64,000 nt of DNA, taken from assembly GCF_000768335.1 (NCBI RefSeq), contig NZ_AVPT01000002.1, positions 124,001 through 188,000 of the forward strand. The letters are read 5' to 3'. The position numbers and the translations under genes are program-made. Shown piece by piece: positions 1-41,394 of the stretch (positions are counted from its first letter, which is position 1; each line of letters starts with the position of its first letter). Source of the DNA: Lysobacter arseniciresistens ZS79 (GTDB lineage: Bacteria > Pseudomonadota > Gammaproteobacteria > Xanthomonadales > Xanthomonadaceae). The notes under the pieces are model-generated. The model searched no databases and was not told the DNA's origin. It saw nothing but the letters and a program-made list of their open reading frames with translations.

Positions 1-29
1 CGCAGGCTGCGCGGGCGCAGCGACTTCAT
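1..29 (-). CDS. Partial: start of a sensor histidine kinase (inferred)
   Basis: Only the first nine codons are inside the window (ATG at 29-27, reading MKSLRPRSL). The stop of the response regulator gene and this ATG overlap as TGATG, the coupling usual between an OmpR-family regulator and its histidine kinase. The Arg/Lys-rich start fits the cytoplasmic end before a first membrane segment. The kinase identity comes only from position and overlap; no kinase motif is visible here. Confidence 0.55.
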
Positions 30-721
30 CAGCGTCCGTCCGCCGCGGCCACGCGTGCGAGCCGGTAACCCACGCGCGGCACGGTCTGGATCAGCTTGAC
101 CGGGAACGGCCCGTCCACCTCGCGCCGGAGCTCGTAGATGTGGGAGCGCAGCATGTCGCCGTCGGGCGGCTCGTCGCCCCACAGCACGCGTTCGAGCTGC
201 TCGCGGGTGACCACGGCGGGGCTGGCGCGCATCAGTACCTCCAGCAGCTTGCGGCCCGCCGGGAACAGGTGCACCGGGGCCTCGCCGCGGCTGGCCTCCA
301 GCGTCGACAGGTCCAGCCGCAGGTCCTCCACCTCCAGCACACGGCTGCGCGCGCGGCCCTGGATGCGGGCCTGCAGGCTCTCCAGCCGCACTTCCAGCTC
401 GGGCAGGTCGAACGGCTTGGTCAGGTAGTCGTCGGCGCCGGCGCGGAAACCTTCGAGTTTGTCGGGCAGCTCGTCGCGCGCGGTCAGCATGATCACCGGC
501 ATGTCGCTGTCGCCCTCGTCGCGCAGCTTGCGCAGCACCTCCGGGCCGTCCATGCGCGGCAGCATCCAGTCGAGGATCAGCGCGTCATAGGGCTGGGTCA
601 GCGCCAGGTGCAGGCCGGTGATGCCGTCGGGCGCGGCATCCAGCACGTGGCCGCGCGCCTCGAAGTAGGCGAACAGGTTGGCGACCAGGTTGCGGTTGTC
701 TTCGATGACCAGCAGGCGCAT
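29..721 (-). CDS. ColR-type OmpR-family response regulator
   Basis: Two-domain DNA-binding response regulator of 230 aa. The receiver has the acidic pair after MRLLVIED, phosphoacceptor Asp51 (LILDWMLP), the conserved Thr in MLTARD (about residue 80) and Lys102 (LTKPFD). The C-terminal winged helix (about 130-225) carries a PPDGDMLRSHIYELRR stretch very like ColR/VgrR proteins of xanthomonads. I start at the ATG at 721; an in-frame TTG two codons upstream is less likely. The gene overlaps its presumed kinase and is divergent from lipid A-modifying genes. ColR family members elsewhere respond to metals or cationic stress and control eptA-type genes, so control of the adjacent block is the natural inference. 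A TCCGAC-type pair in front of the gene suggests autoregulation. Confidence 0.88.
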   Translation of the reverse strand: MRLLVIEDNRNLVANLFAYFEARGHVLDAAPDGITGLHLALTQPYDALILDWMLPRMDGPEVLRKLRDEGDSDMPVIMLTARDELPDKLEGFRAGADDYLTKPFDLPELEVRLESLQARIQGRARSRVLEVEDLRLDLSTLEASRGEAPVHLFPAGRKLLEVLMRASPAVVTREQLERVLWGDEPPDGDMLRSHIYELRREVDGPFPVKLIQTVPRVGYRLARVAAADGR

Positions 722-773
722 GGGCAATCCGTGGTGTCGGCCTTCGGCCGCCGTGCAGCGTGCGGCGAGGCAT

Positions 774-790
774 GTCGGAAATCCGTCGGC
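774..790 (-). promoter_or_regulatory. Possible autoregulatory site of the response regulator
   Basis: On the minus strand, GCCGAC (790-785) and TCCGAC (779-774) lie exactly 11 bp apart, about 55 bp before the regulator ATG. Their sequence and phase match the half-sites found before the PAP2 and LTA-synthase-like genes. Inferred, not demonstrated. Confidence 0.4.
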
Positions 791-817
791 GGCAGGTTAA
801 CCGAAACCCCACAGGCG

Positions 818-879
818 TCCGACGGCGCTCCGACGCCGCACGCACGCGGCTCCGACGTGACGGGCACCGGCTTCCGACG
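818..879 (+). promoter_or_regulatory. Phased TCCGACG direct repeats (candidate regulator operator)
   Basis: Four exact copies of TCCGACG begin at 818, 829, 851 and 873, so spacings are 11, 22 and 22 bp and all copies fall on one face of the helix. Tandem half-sites at 10-11 bp are the usual target of OmpR-family regulators, and such a regulator is encoded divergently next door. The last copy overlaps the most upstream possible GTG start of the PAP2 gene, which argues for a start further downstream. Confidence 0.6.
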
Positions 880-926
880 TGGCCATCCCGAGCATGCGCA
901 GCGTGTTCGGTCGTGGTGATGCGTAC

Positions 927-1610
927 ATGGGTTCCAAAGACGTGGCGTTGTGGGTGTGGCCGTTGGCCGCGTTGGCGTTGCTGTCGGTCTGGCTGCTGGG
1001 TCTGCGCGGCGACCTGTGGCTGGCCGACTGGCTGTATGCGTGGGAAGGCGGACGTTGGGCGCTGCAATCGCACTGGCTGACCGGGCCGGTATTGCACACG
1101 GGCGCGCGCCATGCGTCGACCGCGGCGTGGGTGGGCGTGGTGCTGGCGTGGCTGGCGTCGCTGCTGCATCCCGGCTGGCACGCGTGGCGCCGACCGCTGG
1201 GCTACCTGGCGTTGGCAGTGTTGCTTGGCACAGGACTGGTCTCGGCGCTGAAGGCCCATAGCCAGATGGATTGTCCGTGGGATCTCGCGCGCTACGGTGG
1301 CACCCGCGCTTACCACCGTCCATGGCAGGCCGCCGGGCAAACGCCGGGACGCTGCTTCCCCGCCGGCCACGCCAGCGCTGGCTACGCATGGCTGGCGCTG
1401 TACTTCTTTTTTGATGCGGTACGGCCCCGATGGCGTAGACGCGGGTTGGCGGCCGGACTCGGGCTCGGGTTGCTGTTCGGCATCGACCAGCAGTTGCGCG
1501 GGGCGCACTTCCTGTCGCACGACCTGTACAGCGCGGCGATCTGCTGGTTCATCGCATTGGGGCTGTCCCGCTGGGTGCTCCGTTCGCGCCGCGCGGAGAT
1601 GCTGGCATGA
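927..1610 (+). CDS. PAP2-family membrane phosphatase
   Basis: Integral membrane phosphatase of the PAP2 superfamily (LpxE/PgpB-like), probably acting on lipid phosphates or lipid A in the periplasmic leaflet. Hydrophobic helices fill the protein. The three PAP2 signatures are visible: a K-x6-CPWDL variant of motif 1 (KAHSQMDCPWDL), PAGHASAG for motif 2 and RGAHFLSHDLYSA for motif 3 with the catalytic His and Asp. I choose the ATG at 927 (227 aa). An ATG at 894 and a GTG at 879 are also in frame, but the operator-like repeats run to 879. The 3' end overlaps the eptA-type gene by 4 nt (ATGA), so the two are probably co-translated. The exact substrate is not known from sequence. Confidence 0.85.
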   Translation: MGSKDVALWVWPLAALALLSVWLLGLRGDLWLADWLYAWEGGRWALQSHWLTGPVLHTGARHASTAAWVGVVLAWLASLLHPGWHAWRRPLGYLALAVLLGTGLVSALKAHSQMDCPWDLARYGGTRAYHRPWQAAGQTPGRCFPAGHASAGYAWLALYFFFDAVRPRWRRRGLAAGLGLGLLFGIDQQLRGAHFLSHDLYSAAICWFIALGLSRWVLRSRRAEMLA

Positions 1611-3268
1611 GCAGCATCCCGCTGGCCCGATCACCGTTGTGGGCAGAGGCTTTGCGCGCAGTCGCACAATGGCGGCCGCGAAGCACGGTGGAGGCGCTGG
1701 TGATGCTGGCCAGCGGCTACTTCGCGCTGACCGCCAACGGGCCGTTCTGGCAGGCGGCATTGGGCCATGGCTGGGCGCAGTGGCGGCTGGCGGTGGCGTT
1801 GTTCGTCTTGCTGTTCGGGCTGCACGGGCTGTTGCTCGGGCTGCTGCTGGCGCGGCCGTGGGCCAAGCCGGCGTTGTCGCTGCTGCTGGTGGTCACCGCC
1901 GGTGCGACCTTCCACATGCAGTCCTACGGCGTGTACCTGGACGCCGACATGCTGCGCAACGTGTTGCATACCGATTGGGCCGAGTCGCGCGAGTTGTTCA
2001 CCCCCGGGCTCGGCCGGCACCTGCTGGTGTTCGCGGGCGTGCCGTGTGCGTTGCTGTCGCGCGTGGAACTGGTGCGCCGGCCGATGTCGCGGGCCTTGCT
2101 GGTGCGCGCCGGGTTCCTGCTGTCGATGTGGGTGCTGCTGATGCTGGGCGCCGCGGTCTCGTTCAAGGACCTGTCTTCCCTGCTACGCAACCAGCACGAG
2201 GCGCGCTATCTGGTGACGCCGGCCAACTATCTGTACGGCCTGGGCAATCTTGCCCTCGCGCACCCTCCCACGCATGACGCGCCCCTGCTGCCCGTGGCGG
2301 TGGACGCGCGCCAAGCGCCAGCGGCGGCCACCCGCAAGCCACGCCTGCTGGTGCTGGTGGTGGGCGAAACCGTACGGGCGCAGAACTGGGGCCTGAACGG
2401 ATACGAGCGCCAGACCACGCCGGAACTGGCGGGCCTGGACGTGGTGAACTTCCCGCACGTGCAAGCCTGCGGCAGCAGCACCGAGGTCTCGCTGCCGTGC
2501 ATGTTCTCGCCCTGGGGACGCGAAGAATACGACGAGGATCGCATCCGCACGCACCAGTCCTTGCTGCATGTCCTGCAGCGCGTCGGGGTGAACGTGACGT
2601 GGCATGACAACCAGAGCGGCTGCAAGGGCGTGTGCGAAGGGCTGGAGTTCGAGTCGGCGGCCGCATCTGCCGACCCCGCCCTGTGCGACGGCCTGCGTTG
2701 CCTGGACGAGGGCCTGCTGGCGGGCCTGCCGCGCCGGGCCGGAGCGGACGCCGGCGACAGGGTCATCGTCCTGCACATGCTGGGCAATCACGGCCCCAGC
2801 TACTTCCAGCGTTATCCGCCCGCGTTCAAGCGTTTCCTGCCCGCCTGCGAAACGGCCGAACTGGGCCACTGCTCGCGCGAGGAGATCGTCAACGCCTACG
2901 ACAACGCGGTGCTCTACACCGACCATGTGCTGTCGCAGGCGATTGCCCGGCTGCGTGAAGTGGAGGGCTACGACGCCGCGCTGCTGTATCTGTCCGACCA
3001 CGGCGAGTCGCTGGGCGAGAATGGGCTGTACCTACACGGCATGCCCTACCCGATCGCGCCGCAGCAGCAACTGCAGGTTCCGATGCTGATGTGGTTCTCG
3101 TCGCGGTTCGCCGCGGGTGCGGGACTGGACCTGCCGTGCCTGCGCGAACGCGCCACCCAGCCGGCCAGCCACGACGCCCTGTTCCCGACCGTGCTCGGCC
3201 TGTTCGACGTGCACACCGCCGCCTACGTCCCCGAGCGCGACCTCACCGCCGGCTGCCGGCCCGGCTGA
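1607..3268 (+). CDS. eptA: EptA/MCR-type phosphoethanolamine-lipid A transferase
   Basis: Transfers phosphoethanolamine from phosphatidylethanolamine to lipid A phosphates, lowering negative surface charge and polymyxin binding (family knowledge). At 553 aa it has the usual length. About five membrane helices occupy residues 15-175, followed by a periplasmic sulfatase-fold domain. The nucleophile is Thr255 in VGETVRAQNW. Metal-binding residues appear in LSDHGESLGENGLYLHG (about 463-479) and HMLGNHGPSY, and paired cysteines (ACGSSTEVSLPC, GCKGVC) match EptA disulfides. It sits directly behind a PAP2 phosphatase and opposite a ColR-type regulator. This is a chromosomal xanthomonad-type gene with host-like codon use, with no sign of a mobile mcr cassette. 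Confidence 0.93.
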   Translation: MSSIPLARSPLWAEALRAVAQWRPRSTVEALVMLASGYFALTANGPFWQAALGHGWAQWRLAVALFVLLFGLHGLLLGLLLARPWAKPALSLLLVVTAGATFHMQSYGVYLDADMLRNVLHTDWAESRELFTPGLGRHLLVFAGVPCALLSRVELVRRPMSRALLVRAGFLLSMWVLLMLGAAVSFKDLSSLLRNQHEARYLVTPANYLYGLGNLALAHPPTHDAPLLPVAVDARQAPAAATRKPRLLVLVVGETVRAQNWGLNGYERQTTPELAGLDVVNFPHVQACGSSTEVSLPCMFSPWGREEYDEDRIRTHQSLLHVLQRVGVNVTWHDNQSGCKGVCEGLEFESAAASADPALCDGLRCLDEGLLAGLPRRAGADAGDRVIVLHMLGNHGPSYFQRYPPAFKRFLPACETAELGHCSREEIVNAYDNAVLYTDHVLSQAIARLREVEGYDAALLYLSDHGESLGENGLYLHGMPYPIAPQQQLQVPMLMWFSSRFAAGAGLDLPCLRERATQPASHDALFPTVLGLFDVHTAAYVPERDLTAGCRPG

Positions 3269-3292
3269 ACGAGACCGGTCGAGACGCGTCAT

Positions 3293-3332
3293 TCCGACGC
3301 TTCTCCGACACCCCTCCCACCGGCTTCCGACC
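3293..3332 (+). promoter_or_regulatory. Second phased TCCGAC array upstream of the LTA-synthase-like gene
   Basis: TCCGAC occurs at 3293, 3304 and 3326, with a one-mismatch copy (TCCCAC) at 3315, giving four units at a constant 11-bp step. A TTGACG that could serve as -35 follows at 3341, but no good -10 is evident. The same motif and phase as at 818-879 suggest that one regulator controls both transcription units. Confidence 0.55.
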
Positions 3333-3384
3333 CCTCGCTGTTGACGATGACGTCGTCGTGCCGACGTACGTGCAGGTGTTGCCG

Positions 3385-5313
3385 ATGTTGTCGAAAGCGC
3401 TGGGGCCAGCCAAGCCGCTGCTGTGGTTCTTCGTCGCCGGGCTGGTGTTGCTGAGCGCCTCGCGGCTGGGCTTGGCGTTGTGGAAGTTCGACCAGGTCAG
3501 CCATGTCCACGGCTGGACGAATGTCCTGCTGCAGGGCGTACGGGTTGACGTGGCGACGCTGTGCCTGCTGCTTGCCCTGCCGGCGGTCGCGGTGCTGCTG
3601 CTGCCGGTCAGCCGCATCCTGCGCGTCGCGGTGCCGCTGTGGCTGGCTGCGTGCATGGCGCTATTGCTGCAACTGGAACTGGCCACGCCCGGCTTCATGG
3701 GCGAGTACGGGCTGCGGCCGAACCGGCTGTTCCTCGAATACCTGGTCTACCCGCGCGAAGTGTTCTCGACCCTGTGGCATGGCCGTCCGCTGCAGCTGAT
3801 GCTGGCACCGGTCGCGGTCGCGCTGGCCTTGTGGCTGGGATGGAAGGCCGCGTGTGCGCTCTCGACCCGCCCACGCGCAGTTGCCCCCGCGTGGCTGCGC
3901 GTGGTTGTCGCCACGCTGGCGCTGCTGCTGTGTGCGATGGGCGCGCGCTCCACCCTCGGTCACCGTCCGCTCAACCCGGCGATGGTCGCTTTCAGCTCCA
4001 ACCCGCTGGTCAACCAGCTGCCGCTCAACTCCTTCTACGCGCTCGCCCACGCCACCCGACAGTGGCTGCAGCAGGAGGACAGTGCGATGGACCTGTACGG
4101 CGCGCTGCCCGAAGACGAGGTGATCGCCGCGGTCCGCGCCGGCACCGGCCTGCCCGCGGACGCCTTCACCAACGACGGCATCCCCACCCTCGCCGTGCGC
4201 ACGCCAACGTATACCGGCGCGCCGAAGAACCTCGTCATCGTGCTGGAAGAGAGCCTCGGCGCGCAATTCATCGGTCACCTCGGCGGCCGCCCACTGTCGC
4301 CCAACCTCGACCGCCTCAGCGGGCAGGCGTGGACCTTCACCCGCATGTACGCCACCGGCACCCGCAGTGTGCGCGGCATCGAGGCGGTGGTCGCCGGCTT
4401 CGCACCGACGCCGGCGCAAGCGGTGGTCAAGCAGCCCAAGGCACAGCGCGACTTCTACACCCTGGCCCGGACCCTCGGCGCGCGCGGCTATGACACCACC
4501 TTCTACTACGGGGGCGAGAGCCACTTCGACAACATGCGCGGCTTCTTCTTCGGCAACGGTTTCGGCCGCGTGATCGAGCAGAAGGATTACCTCGACCCGC
4601 AGTTCACCGGCTCATGGGGCGTCAGCGACGAAGACCTGTTCGCCCGCGCCGACGAGGAGTTCAACCGCCTGCACGACGCCGGCAAACCGTTCTTCGGACT
4701 GGTGTTCTCATCCAGCAACCACGACCCGTTCGAGTTCCCCGACGGCCGCATCGCCCTGTACGAGCAGCCGAAGCAGACCCGCAACAACGCCGCCAAGTAC
4801 GCCGACCACGCCGTCGGCCGGTTCTTCGAGCGCGCGATGGCCTCCGATTACTGGGACGACACCGTGTTCCTCGTCGTCGCCGACCACGACTCGCGCGTAT
4901 TCGGCCGGGACCTCGTCCCGATCGACAACTTCCACATCCCCGCGCTGATCCTCGGCGGCGGCATCACCCCGCGCCGCGACGACCGCATCGCCAGCCAGAT
5001 CGACCTCGGCCCGACCCTGCTGTCCCTGGTCGGCATCGACGACCCGACCCCGATGACCGGCCGCGACCTCACCCGCGCCACGCCCGGCCTGCCCGGCCGC
5101 GCCCTCATGCAGTACGACGCCAACTTCGCCTGGATGCAGGGCGACGACGTGGTGGTGCTGCAACCGCAGAAGCCGCCGAAGCAGTTCCGCTACGACCTCG
5201 CCACCAGGCGCCTGCAACCCGCCCCGCTGGACCCGGCGCTGGCGAAGACCGCGCATGCGCAGGCACTGTGGGGATCGCTCGCTTACCAGAAGCAGTGGTA
5301 TCGCATTCCGTGA
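3385..5313 (+). CDS. LTA-synthase-like sulfatase-family membrane enzyme
   Basis: Inner-membrane alkaline-phosphatase-superfamily protein related to LtaS and to OpgB-type phosphoglycerol transferases; 642 aa from the ATG at 3385. Four or five helices occupy roughly residues 10-190, then an extracytoplasmic catalytic domain. Visible features are VIVLEESLGAQFIGHLGG with a probable Ser nucleophile, GGESHFDNMRGFF, and the metal site FLVVADHDSR followed by NFHIPALILGG. Gram-negative bacteria make no lipoteichoic acid. Known relatives move phosphoglycerol or phosphoethanolamine onto periplasmic glucans or lipid A, so an envelope-decorating role is inferred. The frame extends upstream to 3091, but that part overlaps eptA and contains the repeat array. 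It probably has its own promoter. Confidence 0.82.
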   Translation: MLSKALGPAKPLLWFFVAGLVLLSASRLGLALWKFDQVSHVHGWTNVLLQGVRVDVATLCLLLALPAVAVLLLPVSRILRVAVPLWLAACMALLLQLELATPGFMGEYGLRPNRLFLEYLVYPREVFSTLWHGRPLQLMLAPVAVALALWLGWKAACALSTRPRAVAPAWLRVVVATLALLLCAMGARSTLGHRPLNPAMVAFSSNPLVNQLPLNSFYALAHATRQWLQQEDSAMDLYGALPEDEVIAAVRAGTGLPADAFTNDGIPTLAVRTPTYTGAPKNLVIVLEESLGAQFIGHLGGRPLSPNLDRLSGQAWTFTRMYATGTRSVRGIEAVVAGFAPTPAQAVVKQPKAQRDFYTLARTLGARGYDTTFYYGGESHFDNMRGFFFGNGFGRVIEQKDYLDPQFTGSWGVSDEDLFARADEEFNRLHDAGKPFFGLVFSSSNHDPFEFPDGRIALYEQPKQTRNNAAKYADHAVGRFFERAMASDYWDDTVFLVVADHDSRVFGRDLVPIDNFHIPALILGGGITPRRDDRIASQIDLGPTLLSLVGIDDPTPMTGRDLTRATPGLPGRALMQYDANFAWMQGDDVVVLQPQKPPKQFRYDLATRRLQPAPLDPALAKTAHAQALWGSLAYQKQWYRIP

Positions 5314-5437
5314 CGGCAGCGCTGTGCGGAAACAGGTACTCCGGGACGGCATCGCAGTGTCCGGGAGAACCGATCTCCCACCCAACGAAGCCAACGCCTC
5401 CACCCGCGGGCGCCGGACGGCGGGGAGATTGCGGAAA

Positions 5438-40195: not shown

Positions 40196-41394
<1,199 letters not shown>

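Follow-up and report, generated by a model that had tools for sequence, protein, structure and literature searches.

We analysed a 64-kb stretch of DNA from Lysobacter arseniciresistens ZS79 (the window, in which all coordinates are positions), whose first part carries the genes for a RaxR-type response regulator and its sensor kinase RaxH, a divergent lpxE-eptA unit and a gene for an LtaS-like enzyme. The lpxE and LtaS-like genes are preceded, and raxR is faced, by copies of the half-site TCCGAC in 11-bp steps; a pair denotes TCCGAC-N5-TCCGAC. These phased arrays are very probably RaxR operators, at which the phosphorylated regulator (RaxR~P) would bind in tandem and activate lpxE-eptA, the LtaS-like gene and raxR-raxH. 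The locus comprises the following features.

1-29, minus strand: start of raxH, sensor kinase (translated); continues beyond the window (L061 4744-6030, minus strand), its ATG overlapping the raxR stop codon
29-721, minus strand: raxR ortholog, OmpR-family response regulator (Pfam Response_reg and Trans_reg_C); frame open from TTG 727
757-762, minus strand: -10-like CACGCT for raxR, 11 nt past the last half-site
774-790, minus strand: raxR-facing pair, a predicted autoregulatory box; GCCGAC (790-785) and TCCGAC (779-774), 11 bp apart
818-878, plus strand: lpxE box; exact TCCGAC at 818, 829, 851 and 873, in one 11-bp register
890-895, plus strand: -10-like GAGCAT for lpxE, 11 nt past the 873 half-site
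927-1610, plus strand: lpxE-like PAP2 phosphatase (Pfam PAP2); frame open from GTG 879, overlapping the predicted promoter
1607-3268, plus strand: eptA, lipid A phosphoethanolamine transferase (NCBIfam P_eth_NH2_trans, 546.8 bits, cut-off 500)
3293-3331, plus strand: LtaS-like gene box; TCCGAC at 3293, 3304 and 3326, TCCCAC at 3315
3343-3348, plus strand: -10-like GACGAT for the LtaS-like gene, 11 nt past the 3326 half-site
3385-5313, plus strand: LtaS-like or phosphoglycerol-transferase-like sulfatase-fold enzyme of the VP1736 family (Pfam Sulfatase)

Every half-site position given in an earlier note on this DNA proved correct on re-reading, including the TCCGACG copies, the mismatched copy at 3315 and the minus-strand pair. 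All four half-sites of the lpxE box (818/829/851/873) have G as the next base, and the in-register slots at 840 (ACGCAC) and 862 (GGGCAC) are degenerate. GTTAAC occurs at 796-801, 11 bp above the raxR-facing pair.

The regulator contains both a receiver and a winged-helix domain, in line with orthology to RaxR, a protein named for its presumed role in raxSTAB expression. In the translated RaxH, ExxE occurs at residues 37, 125 and 128, within the sensor region and near TM1 and TM2 (helices placed by eye). The lpxE and eptA genes overlap as ATGA. The top match of the PAP2 protein was NCBIfam PAP2_lipid_A at 78.3 bits, far under the 275-bit cut-off, so the name lpxE was given on account of the neighbouring genes and not of the model cut-off. 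The longest-frame starts, GTG 879 for the PAP2 gene and TTG 727 for the regulator, are probably too early; ATG 927 (lpxE), ATG 721 (regulator) and ATG 3385 (LtaS-like gene) agree better with the predicted promoters.

To characterize the arrays across related bacteria, we collected regulator matches at E≤1e-80, which 161 of the 297 family genomes contained. From these, 91 raxR loci were taken, together with three from other families of the order, giving 94 loci in 28 genera, or 88 after dereplication. A protein 76% identical to the window regulator is encoded in a Xanthomonas cissicola genome, and RaxR orthologs were also found in Stenotrophomonas rhizophila and Pseudoxanthomonas beigongshangi, but no match at E≤1e-70 was obtained in Lysobacter terrigena or Dyella mobilis. 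In G258, taken to be this X. cissicola genome since the match has an identical place and score, the RaxR ortholog adjoins arnT-lpxE-eptA. A contig scan with the regulator, used only to reach named genomes, returned at least 80 loci, all with at most 51% identity.

A phased pair with no more than one mismatch was present within 450 nt upstream of raxR at 89 of the 94 loci and in 27 of the 28 genera; conservation in sister species and genera, on which the earlier note had proposed that its motif be judged, was thus confirmed. Exact pairs occurred in 18 genera. When all spacings from 7 to 23 were compared, exact pairs were found at 11 bp in 54 loci, at 22 in nine and at 14 in one, and at no other spacing. 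Among 120 permutations of the hexamer, exact 11-bp pairs were obtained only for TCCGAC itself (54) and for the overlapping, shifted CTCCGA (10). Within the first 450 nt upstream of raxR at the 88 dereplicated loci, same-strand distances of up to 45 were concentrated at 11 (68 pairs), 22 (12), 33 (7) and 44 (4), and distances of 14, 25, 32 and 36 were each seen once. The block 1.5 kb further on held 16 pairs at 11 and two at 22, located near the lpxE start where arnT intervenes, and the blocks 3 and 4.5 kb further on held one and none. Pairs that face raxR recur among orthologous loci. The arrays are direct repeats in an 11-bp register, as in PhoB/PmrA-type activator boxes.

The arrays also stand at a fixed distance from a -10-like element. 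Alignment of the exact last pairs revealed an element whose A and T occupy +29 and +33, counted from the pair start, i.e., the pattern NANNNT, 11 nt past the array end. This A and T were present at 79 of 83 lpxE and LtaS-like promoters when arrays were extended over inexact half-sites, compared with 0-2 of the 83 at the 16 neighbouring offsets, and at 81 of 83 when arrays were extended over exact half-sites only; such a fixed distance from box to -10 is likewise a property of PhoB/PmrA-type activator boxes. With one promoter taken per genus and gene, the offset held in 23 of 26, and in the other three (lpxE of G000, G089 and G295) the array continues to a further TCCGAC, after which the offset fits. 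Among exact pairs facing raxR, 20 of 23 had the A and T. Same-register positions above the exact pair favoured AAC in the aligned loci, and by their sequence look like weaker half-sites. When 80 raxR genomes were searched for the exact pair plus the -10 pattern, 60 of them yielded matches, 80 in total, and 69 of these matches lay within 10 kb of raxR; the control gave one.

In the window itself, two exact 11-bp pairs were found, whereas 200 first-order Markov simulations averaged 0.03 and never gave more than one; at a tolerance of two mismatches, 12 were found against 11.5 expected, so that the scan has no power at that level. Throughout the 3.09-Mb genome, the exact pair occurs twice, both times at the present locus, and a reversed control pattern is absent. 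The motif is thus not scattered at random through the genome; such scatter, according to the earlier note, would have refuted its reading. Allowing one mismatch, there were 20 sites (11 for the control), five of which belong to the present locus, and only one of the 15 sites elsewhere shows the A and T of the -10 at that offset (window 41239-41255, minus strand). By these counts and the -10 check, and as far as the pattern is sensitive enough to tell, the box is seen nowhere else in this genome. The one-mismatch pair at 41239-41255 lies under a long open reading frame (ORF). We dropped such a position as a reason for calling the 15 distant sites chance, given that the three one-mismatch sites of the locus itself also lie under long frames.

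The box was tied to the presence of the regulator. Genomes with a raxR match contained 2.05 exact pairs on average (152 of 161 had at least one), compared with 0.46 in those without (51 of 136), and reversed control pairs averaged 0.32 and 0.27 per genome, respectively. The comparative data thus favour the earlier note's proposal that the adjacent OmpR-family regulator reads the arrays. We also examined 61 genomes lacking a raxR match, 16 of which have eptA, at 17 loci, and the box was not found at 16 of these 17. The sole eptA locus with a pair (G094) lies on a 4636-nt contig, too short for the presence of raxR to be judged.

We then determined which genes carry the box, looking at the 88 dereplicated loci for a pair, mismatched at one base at most, in the 330 nt before each gene. 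All 70 lpxE genes and all seven LtaS-like genes had one. Only four of 74 eptA genes did; 69 of the 74 start less than 40 nt past the preceding gene. The control hexamer CAGCCT gave no pair upstream of any of the 185 lpxE, LtaS-like, arnT and eptA genes. In three genomes, G190, G235 and G311, the first gene found divergent from raxR is the LtaS-like one, which has its own array. In a search of 66 genomes, 13 LtaS-like homologs were found at 47% identity or more. All 11 raxR-linked ones were preceded by a phased pair (ten exact, and one in G006 with one mismatch), linkage having been checked in G301 and G259. Of the two unlinked ones, that of G164 has no pair, and at that of G086 an exact pair lies on the opposite strand. 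Judged by these sequences, the LtaS-like gene is a recurrent predicted target, with the pair at 12 of 13 close homologs. No pair was found within 200 nt of three remoter homologs (33-35% identity).

The nearest solved relative of the LtaS-like enzyme is the uncharacterised VP1736 (PDB 3lxq; 551 bits over 448 residues), compared with 49-69 bits for LtaP/LtaS, i.e., the lipoteichoic acid primase and synthases. No paper on VP1736 was found in our literature search. The enzyme (3385-5313) and VP1736 have in common the sequence TGTRSVRG, which aligns near the position of the LtaS catalytic threonine. In LtaS, this threonine lies in a KTS motif. To judge from this alignment, enzymes of the VP1736-type family may use a serine as nucleophile, or a threonine at a shifted position.

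Boxes that serve RaxR are also expected at those of its targets that lie elsewhere. G036 has no box beside raxR, and exact pairs are found there at an unlinked arnT-like gene and at an unlinked lpxE-eptA; the arnT-like protein is 48% identical to that of G008, and its sole NCBIfam match is the ArnT model, below cut-off. A pair also precedes an unlinked lpxE in G190, where raxR faces the LtaS-like gene, and an unlinked eptA in G271, whose raxR locus has arnT and lpxE and no eptA that we could see. In G311 a pair lies about 430 nt before an unlinked lpxE-eptA.

Further unlinked exact pairs with the -10 spacing were observed at other genes. G127 (L337) and G184 (L338), of one genus, have one in common before similar short reading frames, which could be another target. 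In G068 (L339) and G126 (L340), also of one genus, such a pair lies ~390 nt before an ORF that by eye resembles an alpha/beta hydrolase, and in G086 (L344) one precedes a 268-aa ORF that by eye resembles a membrane protein.

A number of results weigh against the reading of the arrays as RaxR operators. Some arrays are degenerate. No pair with at most one mismatch occurs within 450 nt upstream of raxR at five of the 94 loci (G086, G177, G069, G159 and G036), and a box oriented with the gene was found for only 16 of 34 arnT genes, a raxR-facing pair lying in the same stretch for 26 of the 34. The distal boxes of G036 lack a canonical -10, and several other distal exact pairs lie under ORFs and look like chance. 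When exact pairs alone were taken for all divergent-side genes, the A and T were at the -10 offset in 49 of 66. The present genome and 19 others of the 80 gave no match to the exact pair plus -10 pattern, in the former case because its arrays are interrupted, and three of the 69 matches near raxR (G083, G219 and G035) lie outside the regions upstream of raxR and of its divergent genes, and probably arose by coincidence in coding sequence. Finally, genome counts overstate independence because the sequences are related by descent, which is answered in part by the per-genus counts.

What is observed is a set of conserved arrays in a common register, set at a constant distance from a -10-like element and found together with raxR; we infer binding by RaxR, activation rather than repression, and the signal. 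Phosphorylated RaxR would bind head-to-tail on one face of the DNA, with one half-site per 11-bp turn. The array ends 11 nt before a weak -10 and covers the place of a missing -35, from which position RaxR, like PhoB and PmrA, would be expected to recruit RNA polymerase. The three boxes would then drive lpxE-eptA, the LtaS-like gene and, by autoregulation, raxR-raxH, the signal being a metal or envelope stress sensed by RaxH. Overall, the comparisons of sequence support the interpretation of the earlier note as regards the regulator and its boxes, the glucan decoration named there being a possible further role.

It is unlikely, although the best placed of the alternatives, that RaxR binds the arrays and represses, or activates some genes and represses others. 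There is a precedent in Pseudomonas, where ColR is reported to activate eptA but to repress the arn operon (Stewart and Ronald, 2021; PMC8306577). However, the fixed 11-nt gap to the -10 and an array in place of the -35 fit activation, and repressor sites would not be expected to hold such a gap over many genera.

We consider it more doubtful still that the arrays are bound by one or more other OmpR-family regulators of the same genome, e.g., a ~55% identical paralog, with raxR merely adjacent. In favour of this alternative, a search of the present genome with the regulator protein gave 35 hits at E≤0.001. Members of the family typically bind direct repeats 4-5 nt apart (Kivistik, 2009; PMC2689224), and the recognition helix of one 50% paralog, DTLRSHLYNLRK, is fairly similar. 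Sister species that have the 55% paralog and no raxR match, however, lack the box at lpxE-eptA. Moreover, the recognition helix reads D(M/L)LRSH(I/V/M)YELRR in 12 of 14 aligned RaxR proteins (with one change each in G014 and G020), compared with DSLRVHIHGLRA in all seven of the 54-57% paralogs. An origin of the phased copies by chance, or from codon usage in G+C-rich DNA, can practically be dismissed, for although TCCGAC is moderately common (39 copies in the window) and some distal pairs lie under ORFs, the spacing histogram and the permutation control at the 94 loci reject such an origin and the genome-wide counts argue against it.

Sister species offer a view of the same promoter beside another regulator. 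In G001, G002, G007 and G009, all of the window's own genus, lpxE-eptA adjoins a different OmpR-type regulator (42-43% identical over the part available), and the promoter region contains an exact CTGAGA-N5-CTGAGA ~850 nt upstream of eptA (L384, L381, L380 and L383). On balance, and with some reserve, we favour the view that Lysobacterales possess a RaxR regulon read by a specific box that is absent from the literature searched, with a VP1736-type LtaS-like transferase as a fourth envelope enzyme, and that sister species have swapped both regulator and half-site (TCCGAC for CTGAGA) at the same promoter with the 11-bp geometry kept, i.e., that the operator has turned over together with the regulator. 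A sharp predicted box would allow the direct targets of RaxR to be read off genomes; it points to lipid A remodelling and to an uncharacterised LtaS-like enzyme, and the regulator-swap species provide a natural test of joint change in operator and regulator.

Earlier work had described the regulator and its neighbours and had recognized the kinship to ColR. In the literature searched we found no account of the box, of its promoter geometry, of autoregulation or of the LtaS-like gene as a target, nor any OmpR-family activator box in print for RaxR. Among the listed titles and opening parts of abstracts on RaxR, none reported a RaxR site, and no listed title concerned a TTCCGAC site in Xanthomonas. 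Stewart and Ronald (2021; PMC8306577), who state that DNA binding by RaxR had not been demonstrated, describe Xanthomonas RaxR-RaxH beside arnT/lpxE/eptA and argue that it is the true ColR-ColS ortholog. In this sense the earlier label of a ColR-type regulator was apt. The main text of that paper makes no mention of a binding site, direct repeat, promoter, operator, lipoteichoic, sulfatase, LtaS or phosphoglycerol. The window locus has in common with the Xanthomonas system (PMC8306577) the regulator pair, the overlapping lpxE-eptA unit, the divergent layout and a kinase sensor region with ExxE motifs, whereas the box and the fourth target gene are its additions. Adjacency of RaxR to lpxE, eptA and/or arnT, with the lpxE-eptA overlap, was found both in the window and in the tally of architectures over the 94 loci.

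The ColR box of P. putida is (T/C)(T/C)NA(C/G)NN(T/C)TTTTT(C/G)AC, and ColR is reported to lack autoregulation (Kivistik, 2009; PMC2689224). Both boxes are direct-repeat sites of orthologous regulators upstream of envelope genes, but they differ in half-site sequence, and a raxR-facing box recurs here whereas ColR is reported not to be autoregulated (PMC2689224). With up to two mismatches, the ColR consensus had no match in window positions 1-5400 and four elsewhere in the window, against 4.06 expected. Within 450 nt upstream of raxR at the 94 loci there were one perfect and three one-mismatch matches, and a best match of at most three mismatches was found at 77 of the 94, compared with 25 of 92 in a control region 3 kb further on; these closer matches may reflect T-richer intergenic DNA. 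At promoters of PhoB (the pho box) and PmrA, tandem half-sites one helical turn apart lie over the -35 region, upstream of the -10. The present arrays have this same arrangement, with a different half-site and, at lpxE of the window, a register that spans six slots, four of them exact.

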